A stretch of DNA of 64,000 bases from contig CANGCK010000009.1 in NCBI GenBank assembly GCA_947452295.1, forward strand, positions 1 to 64,000, in the 5' to 3' direction. This stretch comes from Sphingobacteriia bacterium (GTDB taxonomy: Bacteria > Bacteroidota > Bacteroidia > Chitinophagales > Chitinophagaceae). The position numbers and the translations under genes were made by a program. Under the pieces are notes generated by a model. It did not search any database. It was given only the letters and a program-made list of their open reading frames with translations, and was not told the DNA's origin. Each line of letters starts with the position of its first letter. Position 1 is the stretch's first letter. Below, piece after piece: positions 18,287-51,511 of the stretch.

Positions 18287-21200
18287 TTACTTCACCCCTA
18301 TTACCGGGATTTGTTGTTGATTGATTAGTTGATTGAGCTGTTTAATATCTGTTTCCAGCATTGATTTTAGTTTGTTTAATTGAACATCTGCCTGACTACT
18401 TAAATCGGCAAACGCCTCTTTCACCTGCTTGCTTGGCGGGTTGTTTCCACTTGCGGCAACACCATATAAACCGGAAATTTTATCGTTCAAACGTATCGGG
18501 AAATTCAATACATCTTGTCCGCTCTTGGCTTTGGTTTGATACAATGCTTCTTCTATTTTAGTCAATGATTTTACCATACTATCGGCCAACTGTTTCACCT
18601 CTTTATTGGTTTTGGCGTCTAATCTTTCGGTTATGTCTTTTATTTGTGAACGAAGTGTTCTTATTTGTTGAATGGCTTTTTGTATTTCGCTGAATTTATC
18701 TCTTACTTGTAACAAAAATCCAACTTGTGCATCGTAATCGGCATCTGTCATTTTATAAACCGGGTCGGCCTTAATTACGAATGCAACATCAACTGAATCA
18801 TTGTTATATCTTACACGTGCAGTGTACTTGCCGGGTGCAGCTTTCACCGAGCCTATAGATCCATTCCATAAAATCATGCCATCTGCTTTTTCAGCTGGGG
18901 GATAATTCATGTCCCACGCAAACTGATTCATGCCTTCATTGAAGCCTAACTTGTCGGTTGTTTCTTTGGCTGTTTTACTGAATGTTTTAATGGCTTGACG
19001 TGCTTTATCGAAAATAGTTATCGATACTTTTGAACTGTCGTTTACATTTTTTAGATAGTAATTAAGTACCACGCCGGCAACAGGATTTTCGCCGGTATTG
19101 GGTTCTTGGGTTGACTGACCACGACGGCCACGGCGACCACCACCTTCTAAACGATACGCATCATTCACCGGAAATACATGTAAGTTTTTATTGGCAACAG
19201 CAATGTCTTTTAACTGTACCAGGGTTAAATCATCCAATACCCAAAATGCCCTACCCTGTGTTGCTACAATTAAATCATTGTTCTTAATCGTTAAATCGGT
19301 AATAGGCACTATAGGTAAGTTCAATTGGAATGATTGCCAGTTGGCACCGCCATCATAACTGATGTACATGCCATATTCGGTGCCGGCATATAATAACCCG
19401 GGACGCACTTTGTCGGCACGCATGGCTCTGGTGAAATGCATTGCATTTATGCCATTGGTAATTTTTTCCCAGGTTTTACCATAATCTTCTGTTATGAAAA
19501 TGTAGGGGGCAAAGTCATCTGACTTGTATTTTGTACCTACTATATAAGCTGTACCTTTTTTAAACGGGTCTGTTTCAATACAATTCCACATCATCCATTT
19601 ACCGGCTTCGGCAGGGGTAACATTTTCCCAGTTCTTTCCTCCATCTTTACTCACATGTACTAAACCATCATCGCTTCCGGTCCATAATAAATCTTGTTCT
19701 AACACCGACTCTGTAGCGGTAAAAATGGTAGAATAATATTCCACCGAAGTATTGTCTTGCGTAATAGGTCCGCCACTGGAAGCTTGCTTGCTTTTATCGT
19801 TGGTGGTTAAATCCGGACTAATGGTTTCCCAGCTTTGTCCCTCATTGGTAGTGGCAAATAAGTGATTGCCGGCGGTATACAATTTTTTAGGATTATGGGG
19901 CGAGAAGAAAATCGGAAAATTCCATTGGAAACGATATTTCTGTACATCGGCACCGGCACCCATTGGGTTATCGGGCCAAACATTGATGGCACGATTCTCT
20001 CCGGTTTTATGATCTAATCGCGAAAGATAACCACCATAGTTGCCACCATATACAACATCAGGATTTAATGGATCTGCCACAACATAACCACTTTCGGCAC
20101 CGGCAGTTACATCCCAATCGCGTTCGGTAATACCTGAGCCAGAAGTTCTACTTTTAATGCGTACGGTTGAATTGTCTTGCTGAGCACCTAATATGCGATA
20201 AGGAACAGCATTATCGGTACTTACCCTATAGAATTGAGCGGTAGGCTGATTCATTAATGAACTCCAGTTATTTCCTGCGTCGAAACTTACCTGAGCACCA
20301 CCATCATCAGCAATAATCATTCTATTCCCATCTTGTGGATCAATCCACAAATCGTGGTGATCTCCATGCGGTGTGTTAACTGCAGAGAATGTTTTACCAC
20401 CGTCTCTACTCCGCATAAACTCAACATTTAGACAATACACTAAATTTTCATTTTTAGGATCTACAAACACTTTACTGTAATACCATGCTCGTTGGCGAAT
20501 ATTATTGTCGCTACTACTTAAAGACCATGTTTCACCACCATCGGAACTGGTATATAAACCACCATCTTTATTTTCTATTAAAGCATATAGTTTATCGGCG
20601 TTAGAAGGTGCTACTGCAACTCCTACAATACCCCAAACTCCCTTGGGCAAGCCTTTGCTTTTGGTGATAGCCTCCCATGTTTCGCCACCATCTATACTTT
20701 TGTACAAGCCACTGCCTTCACCACCACTTTCCATGCTGTAAGGTGTTCTTTTAACGTTCCACATTCCGGCATAAAAAACAGACGGGTTACCGGGTTCCAT
20801 CACTAAATCGGAACAACCTGTTTGACTGTTTACAAACAATGTTTTTTTCCAGGTTTTACCCCCATCGGTAGTTTTGTACACGCCACGATCACTATTGGGT
20901 CCAAATAAATGACCCACAACAGCAACCCAAACAGTATTGGGATCACGAGGGTGAATGATAATGCGTATGATATGACGACCTTCTTTTAACCCAAGATTTT
21001 GCCATGTTCTACCGGCATCATCGCTGCGCCAAATTCCACCTAAACCTTCAGCAACATTGCCTCTCATGGTATTTTCGCCCTCACCTACATATACAACACT
21101 TTCATCACTAGGAGCAATTGCTACAGCACCAATTGTACCACCAAAATATTTATCACTGGTATTTTTCCAGTTACTTCCGCCATCTGTAGTTTTCCATACA

Positions 21201-39868: not shown

Positions 39869-41416
39869 ATGCTGGTTAAAACATTTGGCAGCGCTGTGTA
39901 TGGCGTTGAGGCGATCACTATTACTATTGAAGTAAATGTTAGCATGGGGCAAGGTTATGCGATTGTAGGTCTTCCGGACAATGCGGTAAGAGAAAGTTTA
40001 CAAAGAACAGAAAGTGCAATTAAAACCAATGGTTTTCATATGCCCCGTACTAAAGTAGTAGTAAACCTTGCTCCTGCCGACATTAAAAAAACGGGCTCGG
40101 CTTTTGATTTACCGATTGCCATTGGTGTATTAGCGGCTAGTGAACAGTTGGCTAATGCCGAAGAGCTTTCACATTATGTTATTATGGGTGAATTAGGGTT
40201 AGATGGATCTGTGCAGCCTATTAAGGGTGCCTTACCCATTGCAATACAAGCGCGTAAAGAAGGATTTAAAGGCTTGATTGTTCCTAAACCCAATGTTCGG
40301 GAGGCGGCGATGGTAAATCAATTAAACGTATATGGGGTAGACCACATCAATCAAGTGGTATCGTTTTTTGAAAATGAAGCAACCCTTGAACCTGAGGTGG
40401 TGAATACACGTGATGATTTTTTTAATACCCAAGATCAATATGATTTTGATTTTACGGATGTAAAAGGGCAAGAAAATATAAAGCGGGCATTGGAAATAGC
40501 CGCCGCAGGCGGACATAATGCAATTTTAATAGGCCCGCCGGGCGCTGGTAAAACCATGCTAGCCAAGCGAATGCCCACAATATTACCACCTTTGTCACTT
40601 CAAGAAGCATTAGAAACAACTAAAATTCATAGTGTTGCAGGCAAACTACCTACAGGCAGTGCTTTGATTAACAAACGACCATTTAGGTCGCCCCACCACA
40701 CAATATCAGATATGGCCTTAGTGGGAGGTGGTAGCAATCCTCAACCAGGAGAAATCTCCTTAGCACACAATGGTGTATTGTTTTTAGATGAGCTACCCGA
40801 ATTTAAACGTACTGTATTAGAAGTAATGCGCCAACCAATGGAAGAGCGGAAAGTAAGTATCTCTCGGACAAAGATGGCACTTGATTTTCCGGCAAACTTC
40901 ATGTTACTGGCTTCTATGAACCCATGCCCTTGTGGATTTTACAATCACCCCGAAAAAGACTGCACCTGCGGTTCTGGCATCGTTCAAAAATATTTGAATA
41001 AGGTATCGGGGCCATTATTAGATCGCATCGATTTACATGTAGAAGTTACACCCGTTTCGTTTACTGCTCTTACCAATACTCAAGAGCAGCTTGGCGAAAC
41101 ATCTGCCAATATTAGGCAAAGAGTAATTAAAGCACGAGCAATACAAGCAAATCGTTTTAAGGAGCTAGAAGGTATTTATGCAAATGCACAAATGGGTTCG
41201 GGTACATTAAGAACAGTATGTGTGTTGAATAAGGTTTCGGAAAGTCTGCTAAAAAAAGCCATGGAAAGGTTAAACCTAAGTGCCCGCGCTTACGACAGGA
41301 TATTAAAAGTTAGCAGAACCATTGCCGATTTAGCAGATTCTGAAGATATTCAATCTGAACATGTTGCCGAAGCCATTCAATACAGAAGTTTGGACAGAGA
41401 GGGATGGGGAGGGTAA
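39869..41416 (+). CDS. YifB-family Mg-chelatase-like AAA+ ATPase (ComM type)
   Basis: 515-residue AAA+ protein of the YifB/ComM family; ComM acts as a branch-migration helicase in natural transformation of Vibrio and Haemophilus. The N-terminal lon-protease-like fold spans 1-180 (GYAIVGLPDNAVRESLQR), the ATPase core follows with Walker A GPPGAGKTMLAKR and LFLDELPEF, then a four-Cys zinc motif CPCGFYNHPEKDCTCG and the SARAYDRILKVSRTIADL C-terminus. A transformation role in this organism is inferred. Confidence 0.93.
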   Translation: MLVKTFGSAVYGVEAITITIEVNVSMGQGYAIVGLPDNAVRESLQRTESAIKTNGFHMPRTKVVVNLAPADIKKTGSAFDLPIAIGVLAASEQLANAEELSHYVIMGELGLDGSVQPIKGALPIAIQARKEGFKGLIVPKPNVREAAMVNQLNVYGVDHINQVVSFFENEATLEPEVVNTRDDFFNTQDQYDFDFTDVKGQENIKRALEIAAAGGHNAILIGPPGAGKTMLAKRMPTILPPLSLQEALETTKIHSVAGKLPTGSALINKRPFRSPHHTISDMALVGGGSNPQPGEISLAHNGVLFLDELPEFKRTVLEVMRQPMEERKVSISRTKMALDFPANFMLLASMNPCPCGFYNHPEKDCTCGSGIVQKYLNKVSGPLLDRIDLHVEVTPVSFTALTNTQEQLGETSANIRQRVIKARAIQANRFKELEGIYANAQMGSGTLRTVCVLNKVSESLLKKAMERLNLSARAYDRILKVSRTIADLADSEDIQSEHVAEAIQYRSLDREGWGG

Positions 41417-41495
41417 AAATGGCTTTTTTATTAGCTAAATTGTAAAAAAGACAGAAAAATGGACAAATAAGCAACAAATCAGGACTTTATTATGG

Positions 41496-41561
41496 GTTAG
41501 TTTGGGTTGTACCAATTGGAGAACCAATAATTTTAGAACCAATCCAATACCAAAACTAACT
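41496..41561 (+). promoter_or_regulatory. Repeated AGAACCAAT boxes upstream of the sensor-phosphatase operon
   Basis: AGAACCAAT occurs at 41520-41528 and 41535-41543, exactly 15 bp apart, with a third ACCAAT at 41511. The block is bracketed by TTAGTTTGG and CCAAAACTAA. It lies just before the first gene of the operon and may be an activator or repressor site. Confidence 0.4.
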
Positions 41562-41565
41562 ACTT

Positions 41566-44500
41566 ATGCGGTCAGCTTTTTTGCTCCTCATATTACTTAA
41601 GGGCGTCATTTGTTTTTGCCAATTACCATCCGATTACAAATTTCAAAGTATTAGCATTGCACAAGGTTTATCGCAAAGCTCTGCTTATAGCGTTTTTCAA
41701 GATCATCTGGGGTATATATGGGCTGGTACCCAAGGGGGAATGAATCGTTATGATGGGTATAGCGTTAAAAAATTCGAGCCAATATCTAGCGATAGTAATA
41801 CGATAAGTATCGGTTGGAGAACCGGTGCAATGGAAGACAACAAAGGAAATATTTGGACTGGAACTAGCATGGGAAATATTTCGATGTATGACCGCAAAAA
41901 AGATGAATGGAAAAACTACAACCCGGGTTATGCAGCTGCATTTAGAAAACAATTTCCCAATTTACAATCTTCAACCCTTGGATTAATACTTAACTTTTAT
42001 TTAGATTCTACTCGACAACTACTCTACATCACTTCTTTTTCAACTGGATTAATTGTATTAGACCTAAAAACAGGAAAATTCAACAGGCATTGGTTTCCGG
42101 AAGCACTTGATAGAAACCTAAAATGGTTAGATAACTCGTTTGTATCTGTTGTTCCCATCGATGGACATACCTTATTGATAACAACTGGCAATGGGGTTGT
42201 ATTCTTTGATCAACGCAGTCAAAAATTTACCCGCCGTTTCTTTAAAAGTGCGGATCCCGCCGACCAATTATTTTGTTTTCAGGCTGTTAAAATCAGCAGC
42301 AACGAATACATGATTGGAAGTTCGAAAGGATTGGTAAAACTTAATGTAAAAACGGGCGAAAGCACCAAGTATTTGCATGACAACAATCAATCCAATTCGA
42401 TTTCTGCCGGACAAATCAGGTCTCTTTGTCTAACTAAAGATAAAAAGAAGATATGGATGGGGATTGACGGGTTGGGGTTGGAGATAATGGATCTAGCTAC
42501 CGGTAATTTCACACATATCAACAAAAGTACAGCGCCCAATTCAGGAATAAAAAGTGATGTATTTTATAATATAATTGAAGACAAAGAAGGGAATATTTGG
42601 ATAGGAAGCTCTGCATCGGGCATGCTTAAATATGATCCAAATCTAAAAAAAATGAATTACCTCTTATCAAAAGAGCCTGCAGAGATGCCCTTGGGATTTT
42701 CAGAAACATGGGGTACTTTCTTTGATTCTAAAAATAATTTATGGCTTGGAGGTTTAGAAGCAGGTGCAGGTATAACAATGATTAATCGAGAAAAAAGAAC
42801 AGCTACACGCTATTTAAACGATGCAAAATCGCTGGAATCGAGAAGATGGGTTTTTGGTGAAGACCATACTGGTGCTATTTATACAATGGGGTCATCTAAA
42901 GCAGGAAGAATATTATATAGAAAACGTAATACCGATAAAGTTTTCTCGGAAATAACCAATCTTACAAAAGATTATAAAGCCGGTAAATTGGCGGCGCTTC
43001 CTAATCAATCATTTTTTTATCTCACAAAAACCGGTGATTTAATAACTGGTGGAGATACTTGCATTGTAATAGCAGATAAAAATGGGGTAATACAAATGAA
43101 GGCCTATACACCATTGTTAAAAATCAACTCTAGGATAAAATATATCATCAATAAGGGAGAAGGTAAAACCTATTTGCTCACCAATAAACATTTTTGGAGA
43201 TGGAATGAACAAACGGGTGAGCTAACTAATCTAACTCCTTGGATTGAGTTAAATACAGTTCAATATTTAATTATGTCGTATGCCGATGTGTTAAATGATC
43301 AATTCGTATATATTCCAACATTTGGCTATGGATTAATGGAGCTTAACTTAAAAACAAAAACGCATAAAATACTTAACCTAAAAGATGGTATACCCAACCA
43401 ATATTTATATGATGCAATAGTAGATAAAAATGGAATGGTATGGAGCTCGAGTAATTTTGGAATTATTCGATATGATCCAAAAAGAAAAACATTCAAAGGT
43501 TTTTATAAAAATGATGGCGCGCAAGATTATGAATACAACGCAACATCTTTTGCAAAAAGTAAAGACGGAGAATTGGCTTATGGTGGACTGGTAGGAGCTA
43601 ATTATTTCTTTCCAGAAACAGTTAAAGACAATCCTAATGCGCCAGATGTAATTATACAATCAATTGCTAAAAAAGGAAAAACAATTAATATTGAAGCAAC
43701 AGCATCTTCAGAAGTGATTGAAGTGAAGTACAACGAAAATCAACTCTCGCTAGAATTTATAGCATTCAATTATAAAAGTCCCGAGTTCAATCAATACGCT
43801 TATAAAATGGAAGGGTATGATAATAATTGGAATTATTCGGGAGGTAGGCATTTTGCAAGCTATACTAATTTGCCATCGGGTACCTATACATTTAAGGTAA
43901 AAGCCAGTAACAATGATGGAGTATGGAATGAAAAAGGTGCAACACTAACAATACATGTTTACCCCGCACCTTGGTTCTCGTGGTGGGCATTGTTAATTTA
44001 TATTGTAGCCATCGGATTTCTCATCAAACTATTTGTAAAGTACAGAGAAACACAGCAAAAGAAAAAGTTAGAAGACGAACGGAAAAACACTGAATTACAA
44101 GCTGCTAAAGATTTTCAACAAAGCATGTTGCCAAAAACGCTTCCTTTGAGAAGTGATTTAGTAATTGCTACCTACCTAAGGTCTTCTACTGAAATAGGAG
44201 GAGATTATTATGATTTCTTTGAACAGCAAAATGGAGACCTGTTTGTTGTTTGTGGTGATGCAACCGGTCATGGAATTATTTCTGGCATGATGGTGTCAAT
44301 TGCAAAAGCAGGCTTAAATGGCATCAGTGTATCTCAGCCAAATAACATACTAAAACAGCTGAATGAAGTGATTAAAAAAGTTGATTTAGGTACGATGCGC
44401 ATGAGTTTAAATATGCTTCAGATTACCGATAACAAAGTAATGATGAGTTCCGCTGCAATGCCTCCGATTTACCATTATGTAGCAGCAAGCGGCAAAGTAG

Positions 44501-44796
44501 AAGAAATCCAAATGAGTGGATTGCCTTTGGGGGGATTAAGAAAAGAGTGCTTTGATTTAGAAGAGCGGACATTTAATCAGGGAGATGCATTTGTGCTTTT
44601 ATCGGATGGATTGCCTGAAGCACCTAATAAAGAAGGCAACTTGTTTGATTATTTTCGCATTCATGAACTAATTGAAAAACATGGCTCAAACGAAGCGAAT
44701 GTGATTAAAGACGAACTTATTAATGCTGTTGATAGTTGGCTTGAAGGCGAAAATAATCCCGATGACATTACCATTATTGTCATCAAGAAAAACTAA
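41566..44796 (+). CDS. Transmembrane sensor: Reg_prop propeller, Y_Y_Y and SpoIIE/PP2C phosphatase
   Basis: 1076-residue signalling protein. A signal peptide (1-19) leads a periplasmic beta-propeller of Reg_prop repeats (about 25-700; the first is QGLSQSSAYSVFQDHLGYIW), a Y_Y_Y domain (about 724-797) and one membrane helix (803-825). A short coiled linker (AAKDFQQSMLPK) joins the cytoplasmic PP2C/SpoIIE phosphatase, whose metal residues lie in EIGGDYYDFF (~876), VCGDATGHG (~897), SDGLPEAPN (~1011) and PDDITIIV. No histidine kinase part is present: the propeller, usually tied to kinases, is tied to a phosphatase. First gene of the operon. Confidence 0.93.
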   Translation: MRSAFLLLILLKGVICFCQLPSDYKFQSISIAQGLSQSSAYSVFQDHLGYIWAGTQGGMNRYDGYSVKKFEPISSDSNTISIGWRTGAMEDNKGNIWTGTSMGNISMYDRKKDEWKNYNPGYAAAFRKQFPNLQSSTLGLILNFYLDSTRQLLYITSFSTGLIVLDLKTGKFNRHWFPEALDRNLKWLDNSFVSVVPIDGHTLLITTGNGVVFFDQRSQKFTRRFFKSADPADQLFCFQAVKISSNEYMIGSSKGLVKLNVKTGESTKYLHDNNQSNSISAGQIRSLCLTKDKKKIWMGIDGLGLEIMDLATGNFTHINKSTAPNSGIKSDVFYNIIEDKEGNIWIGSSASGMLKYDPNLKKMNYLLSKEPAEMPLGFSETWGTFFDSKNNLWLGGLEAGAGITMINREKRTATRYLNDAKSLESRRWVFGEDHTGAIYTMGSSKAGRILYRKRNTDKVFSEITNLTKDYKAGKLAALPNQSFFYLTKTGDLITGGDTCIVIADKNGVIQMKAYTPLLKINSRIKYIINKGEGKTYLLTNKHFWRWNEQTGELTNLTPWIELNTVQYLIMSYADVLNDQFVYIPTFGYGLMELNLKTKTHKILNLKDGIPNQYLYDAIVDKNGMVWSSSNFGIIRYDPKRKTFKGFYKNDGAQDYEYNATSFAKSKDGELAYGGLVGANYFFPETVKDNPNAPDVIIQSIAKKGKTINIEATASSEVIEVKYNENQLSLEFIAFNYKSPEFNQYAYKMEGYDNNWNYSGGRHFASYTNLPSGTYTFKVKASNNDGVWNEKGATLTIHVYPAPWFSWWALLIYIVAIGFLIKLFVKYRETQQKKKLEDERKNTELQAAKDFQQSMLPKTLPLRSDLVIATYLRSSTEIGGDYYDFFEQQNGDLFVVCGDATGHGIISGMMVSIAKAGLNGISVSQPNNILKQLNEVIKKVDLGTMRMSLNMLQITDNKVMMSSAAMPPIYHYVAASGKVEEIQMSGLPLGGLRKECFDLEERTFNQGDAFVLLSDGLPEAPNKEGNLFDYFRIHELIEKHGSNEANVIKDELINAVDSWLEGENNPDDITIIVIKKN

Positions 44797-44822
44797 TTTT
44801 TTAACCTATCCAATATTTAATT

Positions 44823-47800
44823 ATGCGCTTACTATTCACTGCAATTGCATTGACAACTATCATTGGTGTATTTGGACAAGGAAATCCAATGGAGCAGGGG
44901 AATTATTTCATCAGTAAATATACAAGAGACTTCTTTAATGGCAGAGGTGCTAACTGGACGATTGCACAAGATACCAATGGCATTATTTTAGTAGGCAACC
45001 ATATGAATGGCATTGCTGTATATGATGGAAAACGAGTAAAACAATTAAAGTTAAAAGGTGTACCCTATAATGCAGAGGGTAGAAAAATAGAAATTGATAC
45101 AAAAGGAAAAATGTATGTTGCTTCTAACTTTAATTTTGGATACATTAAAAAAAGTGCAGCAAACCAATATGAATATGTATCGCTTTCAAATTCGCTTCCT
45201 GAAAAAGATAAAGTAACAAGTCGGGTATGGGGGTTGGTTTTAAAAAATGACACAGTATTTTTTCAGGCTGATAGTGCGATTTATAAATATTACAACAACA
45301 AATGTTTGAAAGTATGGCACTTTTATCCGGATATACACATAATGCATAAAGCTGGTAATAGAATATTCATTAGGCAATGGGGTGTTGGTTTGAAAGAATT
45401 AATAGGCGATGAATTTGTATTATTAAAAGGTGCTGAAATATTTGCCAAAAATAGAGTAGAAGCCATGTACCAGCTCAACAATGGAAATATACTTTTAGCT
45501 TCAAGAAATATTGGTTTTTGGTTATTACAAAAAAATGGGGTATTCACAAAAACAATAACACCTAAACTAGATGAACTAATAATAAAAGGAGAAGTTTATT
45601 TAACAAATACTGTATTACACAATGGATTAATACCTGTGGGTACTTCTAAATTTGGATTGCTAATTCTTGACCAACAACTTAATCTTATCAAAATTATCAA
45701 TACAGCGGTTGGGCTAGAATCAAATTATGTTGCTGATATTTTTCAGGATAGAAACAACGATATCTGGGTAAGTGGCCGAGGTGCATCAGCTATTACAACA
45801 GATCCGTCGCTTACTTATTTTACCACTACTAATGGATTATATGGAAGCGTAGGTGATATTGTAAGATTGAATGGTAGGTTGTATGTAAAAACTTCTATCG
45901 ACTTATATGAACTGATGCCACCTAAAGATAATTTTGGATCGATCATATTTAAATCGCAAGGTGTAGATGAAACAGGTAATGATATAGGAATTTTCGATAA
46001 CCTTTTGATAACCTCCAATAATTATAATATAAAAAGCTCTAAAAATGCACAAACAAGTATAATTAAAACACAATATTATACTAGTGTATCTAAACAAAGT
46101 TTACTTAATAAGCAATTGCTTATATCTGCAGGCAAAGGACTAACCATACACAAATTTCAAAATAATCAATGGAAAGAATTGCCAATAAAGAATAATATTA
46201 AAAATTACATTTCAGATTTTGTAGAATCAGCGCCTGGAAAATTATTGCTAAATACTGTTGATGGTCCATTAATTTACACTTATACAATTGATGGCGCAGG
46301 TACATTTCACGAATTGATACCCAATAAGAAATTTAGCAATTCAAAAACTTTTCGCTTTTTTCAATCAGGCATAAATCAATACCATGCAGTAGATTCATCG
46401 AATCGTATTTTTAGTATGGATGGTAAAAAATATGAATTAAATTTTACAGGTTGGAGTTTAGATAGCATAGTAAAGAACAATGTATTGTCTATAACATACA
46501 ATGAAGCATCCGGCACCAATTGGATAAAAACATTAAAAGGGTTGTATAAATTACAGATCAACCAAAATCAACCGCCATCAATAATAAAATATCCGTTTGA
46601 AAAAGTAAACATGACTGAATTATCGAACGGTTTTTTTGCTGAAGGAAAGGGCGACAATGAAATACTATGGATAGGCTCACAAGATGACAAGTTATTTAGG
46701 TATGTTCCATCAATTGCAATAAAAAATAAATCTACAGTTTATAATGCATTAATCACTGCCGTATATTATCAGGATTCTGCTATAAACGTAGATCATCAAA
46801 AGTTGCCTTTTAATAAAAATCAACTCACTTTTGAAGTAGCATACCCCATATTTGGAAACGAGCAAAAAATTCAATTTAGCTATTGGTTAGAAGGGCAAGA
46901 TGATGATTGGAGTAACTATACAATTGATTCGAAAAAAGAATACACTAATCTACGAGAAGGAAAATATATACTGCATGTAAGAGCAATTGATGCAAGCTTG
47001 CAGATTAGTAAAGAAGCTACTATGGAGTTTACCATTTTGCCTCCATGGTACAGAACTTGGTGGGCATATATCATATATTTAATTGCATTAGGGTTTGGGA
47101 TCTATTTATTTGGGAAATACCAATCTAAAAGATCATTAGATAAAGCTGAAAATGAAAGAAGATCAGACGAATTAAAGGCAGCAAAAGATTTTCAACAAAG
47201 CATGTTACCTAAACAACTTCCCAACAGAGTAGATTTAGAAATTGCTACATTCCTGAGATCCTCTACGGAAATTGGTGGTGATTATTATGATTTCTTTGAA
47301 CAAGAAAATGGAGACTTGTTTGTTGTTTGTGGTGATGCAACTGGTCATGGGATTATATCTGGCATGATGGTTTCTATTGCTAAAGCAGGCTTAAATGGCA
47401 TTACTGCTGAATTACCCAATGATATACTTAAGCAATTGAACAAGGTAATTAAAAAAGTGGATTTAGGTACCATGCGCATGAGTCTCAATATATTAAAAAT
47501 CAAGGAATCGAGTATTTCATTGAGTTCAGCTGCTATGCCTCCTGTCTATTATTTCAATGCTGAAAATAACAATGTAGAAGAAATAGAATTAAGTGGACTC
47601 CCATTAGGTGGCTTAAGGGATGAATATTTTGACGAAACAACAAGATCATTTAATGCAGGGGATGTAATAGTATTGATATCAGATGGATTACCAGAAGCGC
47701 CAAATAAAGAAGGTGAACTATTCGACTACCAAAGAGTACATCAGGTTATTGAACAAGTTGCTAAAGAAAATGCATTGGCTATTAAAGACAAGCTCATAGA

Positions 47801-47873
47801 GTCGGTAGATAACTGGTTGAATGGAAAAAATAATCCGGATGATATTACCATTATTGTAATTAAAAAAAAGTAG
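44823..47873 (+). CDS. Second sensor phosphatase (propeller, Y_Y_Y, SpoIIE/PP2C)
   Basis: 1016-residue paralogue of the preceding gene, 26 bp downstream. Signal peptide 1-19, a propeller with weak Reg_prop repeats (about 25-650), Y_Y_Y (about 660-740), one membrane helix (745-768) and PP2C/SpoIIE (about 790-1016). The cytoplasmic half is nearly identical to its neighbour (AAKDFQQSMLPK, EIGGDYYDFFEQ, VCGDATGHGIISG, SDGLPEAPNKEG), while the periplasmic half is strongly diverged. This implies duplication with one output and two different inputs. Confidence 0.92.
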   Translation: MRLLFTAIALTTIIGVFGQGNPMEQGNYFISKYTRDFFNGRGANWTIAQDTNGIILVGNHMNGIAVYDGKRVKQLKLKGVPYNAEGRKIEIDTKGKMYVASNFNFGYIKKSAANQYEYVSLSNSLPEKDKVTSRVWGLVLKNDTVFFQADSAIYKYYNNKCLKVWHFYPDIHIMHKAGNRIFIRQWGVGLKELIGDEFVLLKGAEIFAKNRVEAMYQLNNGNILLASRNIGFWLLQKNGVFTKTITPKLDELIIKGEVYLTNTVLHNGLIPVGTSKFGLLILDQQLNLIKIINTAVGLESNYVADIFQDRNNDIWVSGRGASAITTDPSLTYFTTTNGLYGSVGDIVRLNGRLYVKTSIDLYELMPPKDNFGSIIFKSQGVDETGNDIGIFDNLLITSNNYNIKSSKNAQTSIIKTQYYTSVSKQSLLNKQLLISAGKGLTIHKFQNNQWKELPIKNNIKNYISDFVESAPGKLLLNTVDGPLIYTYTIDGAGTFHELIPNKKFSNSKTFRFFQSGINQYHAVDSSNRIFSMDGKKYELNFTGWSLDSIVKNNVLSITYNEASGTNWIKTLKGLYKLQINQNQPPSIIKYPFEKVNMTELSNGFFAEGKGDNEILWIGSQDDKLFRYVPSIAIKNKSTVYNALITAVYYQDSAINVDHQKLPFNKNQLTFEVAYPIFGNEQKIQFSYWLEGQDDDWSNYTIDSKKEYTNLREGKYILHVRAIDASLQISKEATMEFTILPPWYRTWWAYIIYLIALGFGIYLFGKYQSKRSLDKAENERRSDELKAAKDFQQSMLPKQLPNRVDLEIATFLRSSTEIGGDYYDFFEQENGDLFVVCGDATGHGIISGMMVSIAKAGLNGITAELPNDILKQLNKVIKKVDLGTMRMSLNILKIKESSISLSSAAMPPVYYFNAENNNVEEIELSGLPLGGLRDEYFDETTRSFNAGDVIVLISDGLPEAPNKEGELFDYQRVHQVIEQVAKENALAIKDKLIESVDNWLNGKNNPDDITIIVIKKK

Positions 47874-47905
47874 AATAACATCATACACATTAAAAACCAT
47901 CAAAC

Positions 47906-48319
47906 ATGGATAAACCAACAATTGAACTAAAATTGCCGGTGATACCCGACATGGAGTTAATTGCAACCCATACGGCAGAGCTGGTAGGCAATCACATGGG
48001 GCTTACAGAAGAGCAATCCGCTGAAATTAGCATGGCCCTTATTGAAGCATGCATTAATGCATTTGAACATTCATTGTCTAACAATAATGTATTTATACAT
48101 TTTATTATTGATGATGAATCTTTAATAATTAAAGTAATAGATCAGGGTATTGGATTTGACAAGTCGAAAGTAGCAATACCAAAAATTGAAAACAAATTAG
48201 CAGGAGAAAGAAAGCGTGGCTGGGGGCTTGAATTAATTAAAGCGCTAGTCGACTCAGTTGAGTTTGAATCAAATGAAGATGGTACAACAGTAACAATGAT
48301 TAAAAAGAAAAATATATGA
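47906..48319 (+). CDS. RsbW/SpoIIAB-type anti-sigma-like serine kinase
   Basis: 137-residue GHKL ATPase. The N box ALIEACINAFEHS, G1 box DQGIGFD and G2 region GERKRGWGLELIKALVD are intact, followed by GTTVTMIKK. RsbW-type kinases phosphorylate a STAS antagonist and sequester a partner, usually a sigma factor. Its 3' end overlaps the STAS gene by 4 bp (ATGA), the arrangement expected for a kinase and its substrate. No sigma factor gene is nearby, so its client here is unknown. Confidence 0.92.
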   Translation: MDKPTIELKLPVIPDMELIATHTAELVGNHMGLTEEQSAEISMALIEACINAFEHSLSNNNVFIHFIIDDESLIIKVIDQGIGFDKSKVAIPKIENKLAGERKRGWGLELIKALVDSVEFESNEDGTTVTMIKKKNI

Positions 48320-48657
48320 ACGATTTTAAAATAGTAACGAAGCAAGTAAATGATGTAATTGTAATAGCAACAGAAGGCTACCTTAACAATATTGGTGGCG
48401 AACAAATTTCAACTGTATGCTACGAAAAGATGTCGGAAGGTATCAATAAGTTTTTGTTGAATATGGGGGGCACTAAGGTGGTAAACAGCATTGGTGTTTC
48501 GATACTCATTGAAATTATTGAAAAACTTCAACAAGTAGACGGTAAACTAGGCTATTGTAATTTGGCGCCCATAGTAAATAAAACATTTAACATCATGGGG
48601 ATTACTAAATATTCTACTGTTTTTGAAGACGAAGAAGAAGGTGTAAAATCTCTTTAA
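48316..48657 (+). CDS. STAS-domain antagonist (SpoIIAA/RsbV type)
   Basis: 113-residue single STAS domain. The phosphorylation loop reads VVNSIGVSIL, with Ser58 at the position of the phosphorylated Ser of SpoIIAA/RsbV (usual motif DSSG). The Asp before it is replaced by Asn57. It should cycle between phosphorylation by the adjacent kinase and dephosphorylation by the two membrane PP2C proteins. An acidic tail (FEDEEEGVKSL) follows the domain. Confidence 0.9.
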   Translation: MNDFKIVTKQVNDVIVIATEGYLNNIGGEQISTVCYEKMSEGINKFLLNMGGTKVVNSIGVSILIEIIEKLQQVDGKLGYCNLAPIVNKTFNIMGITKYSTVFEDEEEGVKSL

Positions 48658-48668
48658 CCAATTTATTA

Positions 48669-50771
48669 ATGGCCAAAGACGAACTTCTTTTAAAGCAACT
48701 TGAGTTAGAAACTCTTTTAGAGATAACTAATTCATTGCTTGAATTTGAGAATGTGCAAGAATTGTTGCAAGAAATACTGTATAAAGCGTGCAGTATTTTA
48801 GATGCATCAGGAGGTTTTATTCTTACTGAAGAAAAAACGACTGAACTTTTTGTGCCTAGAACTTCTTTCAACATAAACAATTACGAGTTAAATGCAATAA
48901 TCTTCAATCGAAAAAGAGGGTTTTTAAGTAAACTAAATTCCTCTAGAATTGCTAAATCAGAAATCGAGGTAGATGCACTAGTTTTGCAAAAACTAGGCAA
49001 GAAATTTTCAATCATAGCTCCATTAACAGAAAAAAAGAAAGTAATTGGTGCTATTGTTTTACTCGACAAAGAACTAAGAACCGGATTAAGCCCTTTTACC
49101 CCCAACGATAGAAGTATGCTTTCGGCTATTGCAGCTCAAGCTAGTATTGCATACAGTAATACATCGTTACTAGATACCTTAATTGAATCGCAACGATTTA
49201 ATACTAGTGTAATGGAATCTATACATACCGGTGTTATTACTACTAATTTATTTGGAGAGGTAGATCTGGTGAACAATGCAGCATTGGAGATTCTTCAACT
49301 TCAGCGCAATGAAATAATTGGCAATCATTATGAAATTGTGTTTGAACACAATCAGCCACTAATTGAATTTTTACAAAAAGTAGAAACCGATTCGGCCACA
49401 CTAAAAGAAAGTAATCATCAGTTAATGGTTAATGGTGCTGATATTTTAGTGAATCTCTCCATTTCGCCATTGATTGATGAAATGAAAGGATCTATTGGTT
49501 TAGTAATTGCCTTGGAAGATATTTCAAACCTAGATAAAATAAAATCTACATTTAAGAAATATGTGTCAAAACAAATTGTAGACCAAATTTTAGAACATGA
49601 AGGGCACTTAAATTTAGGGGGTCAAGAGCTAGAAGTAACTACCCTATTTAGCGATATAAGAGGATTTACCTCAATGAGTGAGAAGATGAGTGCAAGTGAT
49701 GTAGTTGATACACTAAACGAATACTTCGATAAAATGATTGAAGTAGTGTTTAAATACAATGGTACTCTTGATAAAATAATTGGTGATGCATTGATGGTAA
49801 TTTATGGTGCACCGCTTGGATCAGACAATGATGTAGAGCGAGCTTTACTTACTGCAATTGAAATGCAACAAAAATTAGAAGAGTTAAATGTTAGCAGAAA
49901 GAAAAAAAATCAATTGCCTCTTGAAATTGGTATCGGACTAAATACAGGTAAGGTTATTTCCGGAAATATTGGCTCGAAAGTTCAAATGAATTATACTGTA
50001 ATTGGTGACGCAGTAAACCTTTCTTCTCGTTTATGCTCGTATGCAAAAGCAGGACAGATTATAGTGTCGGAATCAGTATATAGTGCTTTAAAAGACAATT
50101 CAAGTTTTGCATTTAAAGCATTAGCGCCAATCTTAGTAAAGGGGAAGGAGAAACCAGTGAGCGTATTTGAAGTGCCGTTTTTTAAGAACGAATTGTTGAT
50201 CTCTATTGATGAAAAATATCTTCAAATAGAACAGTTTTTAATGAAAAACCTTCCGCCACACCTTACCTATCATAGCATTCATCATATAAGAGATGTTGTG
50301 GAAAAAAGTGAACTACACGGAATTAATGAAAAACTAAGTCCGCATCAACTCCACTTATTGAAAACTGCTGCTTGGTTACATGACATAGGATACATTTGGG
50401 ATGAAAAGCAGCACGAAGTAAGAGGCTGCCAATTTGCAAAAGAAAATTTACCAGCTTGGGGGTTTTCAGTAAAAGATATAGAGGTCATTTGCGGAATGAT
50501 TATGGCAACCAAAATACCACAATCTCCTACTAACCTTATGGAAGAAGTTATTTGCGATGCAGATTTAGATTATTTAGGAAGAGATGATTATTTTACAATC
50601 AGTGAAAATCTTTTTATTGAATTAAATCACAAAAGCATTCTTTCTTCAGAAGATTGGAAAACAATGCAATTGACTTTTTTTGACAAGCACCAATATTTCA
50701 CTTCTTCTGCAAAAGAAATGAGGGGGCAGCTAAAAATTAAAAATGCTAAAATAATAACCAATAAAAAATAA
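48669..50771 (+). CDS. GAF-PAS-adenylate cyclase-HD fusion
   Basis: 700-residue cytosolic signalling enzyme. GAF (about 12-165), PAS (about 175-290), class III nucleotide cyclase (about 310-495) and HD phosphohydrolase (about 520-660). The cyclase has both metal Asp (FSDIRGFT ~328, IGDALMV ~371), the purine-selecting Lys in TLDKIIGD and Asp in YTVIGDAVNLSSRL, predicting ATP as substrate. The HD domain keeps YHSIHH, WLHDIGY and CDADLD. Joining a cyclase to an HD hydrolase is unusual. It starts 11 bp after the STAS gene. Confidence 0.93.
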   Translation: MAKDELLLKQLELETLLEITNSLLEFENVQELLQEILYKACSILDASGGFILTEEKTTELFVPRTSFNINNYELNAIIFNRKRGFLSKLNSSRIAKSEIEVDALVLQKLGKKFSIIAPLTEKKKVIGAIVLLDKELRTGLSPFTPNDRSMLSAIAAQASIAYSNTSLLDTLIESQRFNTSVMESIHTGVITTNLFGEVDLVNNAALEILQLQRNEIIGNHYEIVFEHNQPLIEFLQKVETDSATLKESNHQLMVNGADILVNLSISPLIDEMKGSIGLVIALEDISNLDKIKSTFKKYVSKQIVDQILEHEGHLNLGGQELEVTTLFSDIRGFTSMSEKMSASDVVDTLNEYFDKMIEVVFKYNGTLDKIIGDALMVIYGAPLGSDNDVERALLTAIEMQQKLEELNVSRKKKNQLPLEIGIGLNTGKVISGNIGSKVQMNYTVIGDAVNLSSRLCSYAKAGQIIVSESVYSALKDNSSFAFKALAPILVKGKEKPVSVFEVPFFKNELLISIDEKYLQIEQFLMKNLPPHLTYHSIHHIRDVVEKSELHGINEKLSPHQLHLLKTAAWLHDIGYIWDEKQHEVRGCQFAKENLPAWGFSVKDIEVICGMIMATKIPQSPTNLMEEVICDADLDYLGRDDYFTISENLFIELNHKSILSSEDWKTMQLTFFDKHQYFTSSAKEMRGQLKIKNAKIITNKK

Positions 50772-50777
50772 AAAATC

Positions 50778-51458
50778 ATGTCAGAAGCAAAACACGACAA
50801 ATCGAAGATGCATTATCAGTTAGACCGAATTTCTTTTTTTAGTGACGGGGTTTTTGCCATTGCTATAACATTATTGGTAATAGAATTTAAAGTGCCTGTT
50901 ATAGAACATGCAACAGATGGTTTACTTTGGCAATCACTATCGCATATGGGTTTAAAGCTATTAGGATTTATTATTAGTTTTTTTATTGTAGGTTACTATT
51001 GGTCAGTTCATCACAGAATTTTTGGATATGTAGACAACTATACATCTCGTTTAATTTGGTTAAATCTGCTTTTTCTTTTCTCTGTAGTGTTACTGCCATT
51101 TAGTTCAGGATTATTGGGCGAATATAATTCTGATGTATCATTACACCTGCCTTATGGTATTTATGTAGCAAATATTATCTTAACAGCTATTATGAATGTA
51201 GTACTATGGCTATATGTAAGCAACCCATCTAAAAAATTATTAACACATGAAATATCGCCAGAACGCATTCGTTTGGGACTGTATTTCACGTTTGTAGTTC
51301 CTGTTATTTTTTTGGTCTCATTTCTATATACACTTGAATTTCCAATATTAGGCAGGTTGATTCCCGTATTCATACCAATTGTATTGAAATACGGCCTCAA
51401 TGGTTTAGCAAAGAAAGCACATGAAAATGAAGCAAGCCGAAAAAAAAATAATGCATAA
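50778..51458 (+). CDS. TMEM175-family potassium channel (DUF1211)
   Basis: 226-residue membrane protein with six hydrophobic segments and the family signature RISFFSDGVFAIAITLLV (RxxxFSD), which forms the pore-lining TM1 in bacterial TMEM175 channels. Bacterial forms have one six-helix repeat and act as tetramers conducting K+. It begins 6 bp after the cyclase and ends just before a terminator, so it is the last gene of the signalling operon. A link between cAMP and channel gating is inference from position only. Confidence 0.9.
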   Translation: MSEAKHDKSKMHYQLDRISFFSDGVFAIAITLLVIEFKVPVIEHATDGLLWQSLSHMGLKLLGFIISFFIVGYYWSVHHRIFGYVDNYTSRLIWLNLLFLFSVVLLPFSSGLLGEYNSDVSLHLPYGIYVANIILTAIMNVVLWLYVSNPSKKLLTHEISPERIRLGLYFTFVVPVIFLVSFLYTLEFPILGRLIPVFIPIVLKYGLNGLAKKAHENEASRKKNNA

Positions 51459-51479
51459 GAAATACTAAAAAATTGTTAG

Positions 51480-51511
51480 AGGAGTTAACGTAATCCGTTA
51501 ACTCCTTTTTT
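51480..51511 (+). terminator. Terminator of the signalling operon
   Basis: A perfect 11-bp stem AGGAGTTAACG / CGTTAACTCCT with a 5-nt loop runs into a T6 run, 21 bp after the TMEM175 stop codon. Confidence 0.92.

Follow-up and report, generated by a model that had tools for sequence, protein, structure and literature searches.

Six genes in a 64,000-nucleotide stretch of a Sphingobacteriia bacterium genome (GenBank assembly GCA_947452295.1, contig CANGCK010000009.1, positions 1 to 64,000; hereafter the window) probably form an operon for a partner switch that acts on an adenylate cyclase as its client instead of on a sigma factor. They encode two sensor phosphatases (PHOS1 and PHOS2), an RsbW-like kinase (KIN), an anti-anti-sigma-like switch protein (STAS), a class III adenylate cyclase with a C-terminal HD domain (CYC) and a membrane channel of the TMEM175 family. 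Judging by these sequences, switch parts best known for sigma control appear to control, in a rare group of Bacteroidota, an enzyme that makes cyclic AMP (cAMP) together with the adjoining membrane channel. If this is true, partner switching, published for sigma factors and cyclic di-GMP (c-di-GMP) enzymes, would extend to cAMP. Signalling by cAMP in Bacteroidota, which to our knowledge is little described, would gain a defined many-sensor input.

Results

The kinase, STAS and cyclase genes form a constant core

Gene context gives good support to the cyclase as the probable client. A search of genome contigs (84,980 species by description) with two peptides of the CYC GAF region returned 28 loci with 48-85% identity in the best segment, under taxon labels that include Chitinophagaceae, Saprospiraceae and Cytophagaceae among others. 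All but one of these loci hold both KIN and STAS (27/28), the exception (L121) being a 3.1-kb contig that starts inside CYC. Because the kinase-STAS-cyclase order recurs elsewhere, mostly with near-zero spacing, the association is not one of chance; the STAS and CYC open reading frames (ORFs) overlap by 1 nt in 18/28 loci, with starts called mechanically. An earlier note on this DNA had proposed a self-contained switch with the cyclase as possible client, to be abandoned if the cyclase and channel genes were not kept beside the switch. The cyclase is kept there (27/28), and the channel in part (TMEM175 in 14/25).

The rest of the window's own genome (G000) agrees with the self-contained switch. 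It encodes two SpoIIE proteins, both in the operon, and one class III cyclase, CYC; KIN is the sole HATPase_c_2 protein above the cut-off, with two weaker matches elsewhere. There are three STAS proteins. The other free-standing one (G000:C3:70908-71201; L006:1474-1872) has VDETMA in place of VNSIG and so no phosphosite serine.

Alignments of KIN and STAS (the window plus 28 copies from 27 loci) show that the residues expected of a working switch are intact. KIN residues E47, N51, D79, G105 and G107 are identical in 29/29 rows, E47 and N51 being the N-box Glu and Asn. The closest solved structure to KIN is RsbW (6m36, E 1.1e-10). STAS S58, in the context VNSIG in the window, is likewise identical in 29/29 rows and is aligned to the phospho-serine site of SpoIIAA, a Ser in 1th8 and an Ala in 1tid. 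One locus carries two kinase-STAS copies (L115:16294-17048 and 19013-19767), identical at 755/755 nt and placed after two different phosphatases, which reflects either a recent tandem duplication or an assembly effect.

The module is rare and patchy. A kinase-profile search (E 1e-20) found the family in 2/394 genomes of the bacterial family and 1/395 of the class, namely in G000 and G259. Both have CYC and TMEM175, and G259 keeps the KIN-STAS-CYC-TMEM175 order. A single-sequence kinase search of 396 genomes of the order gave some match in 187 of them, with close matches in G000 and G259 only (the family, class and order draws overlap). Among the own-genus genomes listed, which do not include all those searched, the module is found in 2/10 by kinase profile and a strong kinase match in 2/15 by single sequence. 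Locus L126 of the cyclase-seeded set is letter for letter part of the G259 stretch L051, so that L126 and G259 are one genome. The distant kinase matches of the order were set aside as switch relatives. Of 20 neighbourhoods read, two (L057 and L060) were checked by Pfam and gave a DUF4175 protein, an ATPase and YbeY; the distant kinase-like HATPase proteins (L057:6208-12324; L060:8588-12744) lie between the DUF4175 protein and YbeY. L124, a Comamonas-labelled contig with the Bacteroidota operon, falls beside L109 on the tree and is probably misbinned. A plasmid origin was considered and rejected: of 72,556 plasmid records, 3 matched the kinase and 13 the cyclase, all below 60% identity, with no cyclase match covering 80% of the query.

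The sensor phosphatases are exchangeable

The SpoIIE domains of PHOS1 and PHOS2 score 98 and 106 bits in Pfam (cut-off 25), and the GGDYYD, GDATGHG, SDGLPEA and NPDDIT motifs are all present in both. The two are paralogues, 56% identical over 392 C-terminal residues, whose sensor parts have diverged until barely alignable. The earlier note called both propeller-phosphatases. A propeller sensor is likely from the whole-protein Reg_prop scores (49 and 29 bits, cut-off 20.4); of the individual repeats, only one in PHOS1 and none in PHOS2 score above it by themselves.

Across the cyclase loci, the number of phosphatases found ranges from zero to five. SpoIIE-domain matches, some of them partial, occur in 25/28 loci. 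The three without are L121, which holds only the start of a PHOS2-like gene at the contig end, L126, which breaks off within a gene that matches TPR weakly, and L114, where no phosphatase was found in the 9.2 kb before KIN. The maximum of five is reached in L113, with one long phosphatase and four others (621-632 aa) that can be aligned to one another along their length; the two of these four checked by Pfam have TPR matches and SpoIIE. At L102:4756-5178, a 140-aa ORF corresponds to PHOS1 without its middle (residues 1-75 joined to 1011-1075) and stands ahead of an intact PHOS2. The kinase, STAS and cyclase are thus the constant part of the operon, and the sensors are exchangeable.

CYC joins an adenylate cyclase to an HD domain

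In CYC, residues D329, K369, D373, T443, N450 and R454, the metal, adenine and transition-state residues of class III adenylate cyclases, are kept in every row that covers them (28 of 29). The best PDB matches of the cyclase domain are adenylate cyclases (6fht, a chimera with a phytochrome; 2w01; CyaB, 3r5g). No GGDEF match was found in Pfam at E 0.01; PF00211 was found instead. The best conserved part of the protein is the linker before the cyclase domain, with a mean column conservation of 0.905 over residues 287-321 and invariant residues 292-305; the cyclase domain reaches 0.79, and GAF and PAS 0.707 each. Class III cyclases generally have a conserved element just before the cyclase domain, and 6fht aligns across part of this linker. 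Residues 287-321 are a candidate contact or signal-transfer site, which is no proof regarding STAS.

The HD domain scores 21.2 bits in whole CYC, against a Pfam cut-off of 22, and 23.6 bits as an isolated domain. Its metal-type residues H535, H539, D542, H571, D572, D630 and D632 are invariant in the rows that cover them (27-28 of 29). A structure model of the domain (predicted local distance difference test, pLDDT, 95) has the HD hydrolases 2pq7, 2pjq and Bacillus subtilis YpgQ as first Foldseek matches (E 2e-4 to 9e-4). The class I cyclic nucleotide phosphodiesterases PDE5, PDE2 and PDE4 rank lower (TMq ~0.65, TMt ~0.4-0.46, at E values from 0.005 upwards). A sequence profile search gives 2pq7, YedJ, 3dto and 2pjq, with the HD-GYP protein 4mcw as a weak match (E 0.0078). 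The domain may be a cAMP phosphodiesterase, a role that is attractive because it is fused to a cyclase. Two further genomes, G513 and G551, hold 793- and 789-aa open frames that contain an HD match and lie downstream of a same-strand cyclase match (L153, L172), possibly more cyclase-HD fusions.

The membrane protein slot holds TMEM175 or YitT-DUF2179

The gene after CYC, visible in 25/28 loci, always encodes a membrane protein: TMEM175 in 14 loci and the unrelated YitT-DUF2179 in 11. In L110, L124 and L128 the contig ends within CYC. TMEM175 of the window belongs to its family by sequence (PF06736, 95 bits; profile match to prokaryotic TMEM175 5vre, E 3.4e-19) and has the FSD-type filter helix. 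Counting the window, where the serine of the FSD motif is Ser, 3 of the 15 TMEM175 rows have Ser there and the other 12 have Thr. The TMEM175 frame of L114 stops at 83 aa, 106 bp short of the contig end.

Relatives of the HD part place this slot in a wider context. Among 294 genomes of the family, 71 places besides the window match CYC at E 1e-40 or better, mostly via HD (short stretches L084, L086, L089, L095 and L097 were replaced by the longer L135-L139 from the same places). YitT-DUF2179 lies at most 400 bp downstream on the same strand in 40/71 of these; of the 31 where it does not, two have less than 900 bp of downstream sequence. A cyclase stands directly upstream in 9/71, and TMEM175 was found in none of the 71 in the stretch read. 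In 24 HD-YitT pairs the HD parts are 38-50% identical. Such pairs occur among L072-L100 and L135-L181, and at L072:574-2025 (- strand) HD and YitT are in one chain. HD-YitT is therefore a frequent pair in the family, and TMEM175 of the window's clade occupies a slot often held by YitT.

A tree of CYC, from which rows below 500 aa (L128) were omitted, splits the TMEM175 and YitT types cleanly (100/100). In a tree of KIN plus STAS, the YitT-bearing L122 and L123 fall among the TMEM175 rows on a 100/99 branch, with a poorly resolved interior. A further YitT is encoded elsewhere in the own genome, without an adjoining HD match, and TMEM175 therefore did not replace a sole YitT.

From gene position alone, we propose that TMEM175 and YitT-DUF2179 are equivalent. 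Because TMEM175 occupies a slot often held by YitT, the shared position suggests that YitT may move ions too. DUF2179 is called PII-like in Borrelia BB0017, which is without the usual ligand residues, and the available passages on YitT-DUF2179, those of this source among them, assign it no molecular function (PMC6516651). Our structure model of YitT was too poor for use (pLDDT 39.6). The presence of TMEM175 and YitT in one operon slot offers a testable handle on YitT-DUF2179. The earlier note saw K+ flux as the output of the operon. A TMEM175 gene is present here; as a general output K+ flux is doubtful, and at most one of two membrane solutions, because 11 of the 25 loci have another membrane protein.

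Sigma factors and cAMP receptors in the own genome

The earlier note saw no sigma factor in the operon, and none is found among the six genes. It also held that a cognate sigma factor elsewhere in the genome would count against the proposal. The own genome has 12 Sigma70_r2 matches, 11 of them over the cut-off, and a single Sigma70_r3 protein, taken as RpoD. A SigB/SigF-type factor was sought there through Sigma70_r3 and none was found, and such a factor was rejected as client. The absence of that type stands for the own genome; extracytoplasmic function (ECF) sigma factors, or the 11 further Sigma70_r2 matches without region 3, are possible clients.

Two CRP/FNR-like proteins are also encoded there (G000:C34:27790-28041 and C32:27948-28205; L130, L131). 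By eye neither has an obvious Arg-Ser/Thr motif, the usual cAMP-pocket motif. This hints weakly at a possible site of cAMP action elsewhere.

Operon boundaries

The six genes lie on the + strand at 41566-51458 (Table 1), with intergenic gaps of 26, 32, -4, 11 and 6 bp; KIN and STAS share 4 bp. ORFs, Pfam and alignments bear out the tight spacing and intact key residues described in the earlier note, which gave the start as 41496; the first gene actually begins at 41566. Pfam assigns Reg_prop/Y_Y_Y/SpoIIE to both phosphatases, then HATPase_c_2, STAS, GAF-PAS-Guanylate_cyc-HD and TMEM175, all above curated cut-offs except HD. The operon is flanked by genes for a ComM-like Mg-chelatase and a pyridoxal enzyme. 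At its end, where the earlier note saw a strong terminator, an intrinsic-terminator-like hairpin lies at 51478-51508. Scanning 12 kb gave 4 such sites against 6.9 expected in shuffles, this one having the longest stem. A promoter scan showed no excess (49 found, 50.8 expected), and the Bacteroidota -33/-7 pattern had no match in 41301-41600.

Table 1. Positions and assignments of the operon features in the window
Feature	Position	Strand	Assignment	Basis
PHOS1	41566..44796	+	Reg_prop/Y_Y_Y sensor, hydrophobic segment aa 801-827, SpoIIE/PP2C 44230-44787	Pfam, motifs, hydropathy
PHOS2	44823..47873	+	Sensor, hydrophobic segment aa 745-764, SpoIIE/PP2C 47307-47864	Pfam, motifs, hydropathy
KIN	47906..48319	+	RsbW/SpoIIAB-like GHKL kinase, 137 aa	Pfam HATPase_c_2, residues, PDB profile match
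STAS	48316..48657	+	Anti-anti-sigma-like switch protein, 113 aa	Pfam STAS, S58
CYC	48669..50771	+	GAF 48753-49151, PAS 49230-49526, class III adenylate cyclase 49632-50159, HD 50244-50738	
TMEM175	50778..51458	+	TMEM175-family membrane channel, 226 aa, RISFFSDGVFAIAITLL stretch	Pfam, profile match
Terminator-like hairpin	51478..51508	+	13-pair stem, then T-rich run	

Discussion

In the mechanism that we favour, sensor phosphatases of the cell envelope would dephosphorylate STAS, and the RsbW-like kinase would phosphorylate it, as in the families to which these proteins belong. One phospho-form of STAS would then bind CYC and alter net cAMP, either by switching the cyclase on or by shifting the balance between cyclase and HD hydrolase. 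By analogy with SiaC of Pseudomonas aeruginosa, the binding form would be dephosphorylated STAS; HsbA reportedly binds when phosphorylated. The adjoining membrane protein, TMEM175 here and YitT-DUF2179 in relatives, would be the probable local output, a weaker part of the proposal. A single set of kinase, STAS and cyclase would, in many relatives, receive input from several phosphatases that differ in their sensors. A bolder version, which we regard as doubtful, has the switch toggle one chain that both makes cAMP, by its cyclase, and degrades it, by an HD phosphodiesterase, and has this enzyme control a neighbouring ion pathway. TMEM175 and YitT-DUF2179 would then be interchangeable, and the uncharacterised YitT-DUF2179 proteins would be ion channels or transporters controlled by an HD enzyme together with its nucleotide.

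The earlier note had STAS releasing the kinase from its client, and the cyclase as that client. We retain the client and find the release of the kinase less supported. A contact between STAS and CYC is more likely than one between kinase and CYC, because published cyclase-linked switches act via STAS or a STAS-like protein in the parts available of the sources (PMC8457831, PMC5085249); the 1-nt overlap of the STAS and CYC genes points the same way. The kinase could nevertheless be the effector, freed or captured by STAS and holding a client as RsbW holds sigma B, be it the GAF/PAS part of the cyclase or an ECF or other sigma factor elsewhere, with the cyclase as target or merely co-transcribed. 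The nearest solved structure to KIN is indeed a sigma-binding kinase (PMC3999984, in the parts available), and the 12 Sigma70_r2 matches offer potential partners. With a presumed RpoD as the only sigma region 3 protein of the genome, no sigma factor in the operon, and a STAS or STAS-like protein as the operating part of cyclase-linked switches (PMC8457831, in part), we consider a kinase effector rather unlikely.

Several observations weigh against the favoured mechanism, and some would fit a looser arrangement of two units, one made of the switch genes and one for cAMP (cyclase-HD with the membrane protein), that have promoter and theme in common and make no contact. STAS and CYC are 134-153 bp apart in six loci, L115 and L116 have the order CYC-YitT-PHOS-KIN-STAS, with cyclase and membrane protein as a block before the switch genes, and HD-YitT pairs occur in many genomes where the kinase profile found nothing. 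The type of membrane protein varies between clades, and pieces may have been exchanged, given the conflict between the KIN-STAS and CYC trees over L122 and L123. The 28 loci were seeded by the cyclase and are silent on how often the switch occurs without it; the reverse, kinase-seeded test rests on two genomes, and L061 and L062 hold more distant SpoIIE-STAS-kinase sets with no such cyclase in the stretch read. The HD sequence profile search found no class I phosphodiesterase, its nearest relatives being uncharacterised HD hydrolases. Finally, HsbD is said to bind phosphorylated HsbA, the opposite of SiaC (PMC6482189, in the parts available), so the direction of STAS control is not fixed by analogy. 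Against mere co-transcription, the link is held in 27/28 loci across several families despite varying phosphatases, and no other client of known type was seen in the own genome; we judge it improbable.

A very different reading takes the operon for a Pycsar-like defence against phages, with a cyclic pyrimidine nucleotide as the product of the cyclase and the membrane protein as the killer of the cell; it was rejected and seems to us exceedingly improbable. The cyclase domain does match twelve PADLOC PycC models (best 3e-26), and a membrane protein gene comes next; these matches span the class III cyclase fold, and K369 and T443, adenine-type by the specificity rule, are identical in all 28 covering rows. 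At E 0.01 the remaining five proteins of the operon, and also the YitT of L105, have no PADLOC match, so that no effector model fits TMEM175 or that YitT. Pycsar is not known to include a phosphatase-kinase switch with several sensors.

Comparison with known systems

Among the open-access papers listed in our searches, none describes a partner switch with such a cyclase operon. In the parts seen of PMC3999984 and PMC6482189, "adenylate cyclase" refers to the two-hybrid method and once, apparently by a slip, to HsbD. The proposed switch with an adenylate cyclase client most resembles SiaABCD of P. aeruginosa, which also joins a phosphatase (SiaA), a kinase (SiaB), a switch protein (SiaC) and a nucleotide cyclase (SiaD). 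In that system, SiaD is activated when SiaC binds its stalk, which SiaB prevents by phosphorylating SiaC (PMC8457831, in part). SiaC is however a DUF1987 protein and SiaD a diguanylate cyclase, whereas the operon described here has STAS, an RsbW-type kinase and an adenylate cyclase-HD protein instead of GGDEF, frequently more than one phosphatase, and either TMEM175 or YitT as a further gene. HsbR-HsbA-HsbD of P. aeruginosa and BgrV-BgrR of Sinorhizobium meliloti are similar in that a STAS protein controls a diguanylate cyclase and its phosphorylation state is essential; HsbA regulates HsbD and BgrV regulates BgrR (PMC5085249, PMC8457831, in part). Their cyclases make c-di-GMP, and the parts seen of these sources do not mention a cyclase-HD fusion or a channel.

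The RsbU-RsbW-RsbV-SigB and SpoIIE-SpoIIAB-SpoIIAA-SigF switches share the SpoIIE-type phosphatase, the GHKL kinase and a STAS protein with a phospho-serine position. They have a sigma factor; the operon here is without one, and none of that type was found in the own genome. CYC is like the CyaB-type class III adenylate cyclases in its cyclase domain and like CyaB1 in its GAF-PAS input, and differs from them by its C-terminal HD domain and its place in a partner-switch operon. Its neighbour shares PF06736 with prokaryotic (5vre) and human TMEM175, although 12 of the 15 operon-family copies have Thr at the FSD serine. In the HD-YitT pairs of the family, HD is mostly free-standing or fused to YitT (L072), whereas in the window it is part of the cyclase chain, with TMEM175 as the next gene.

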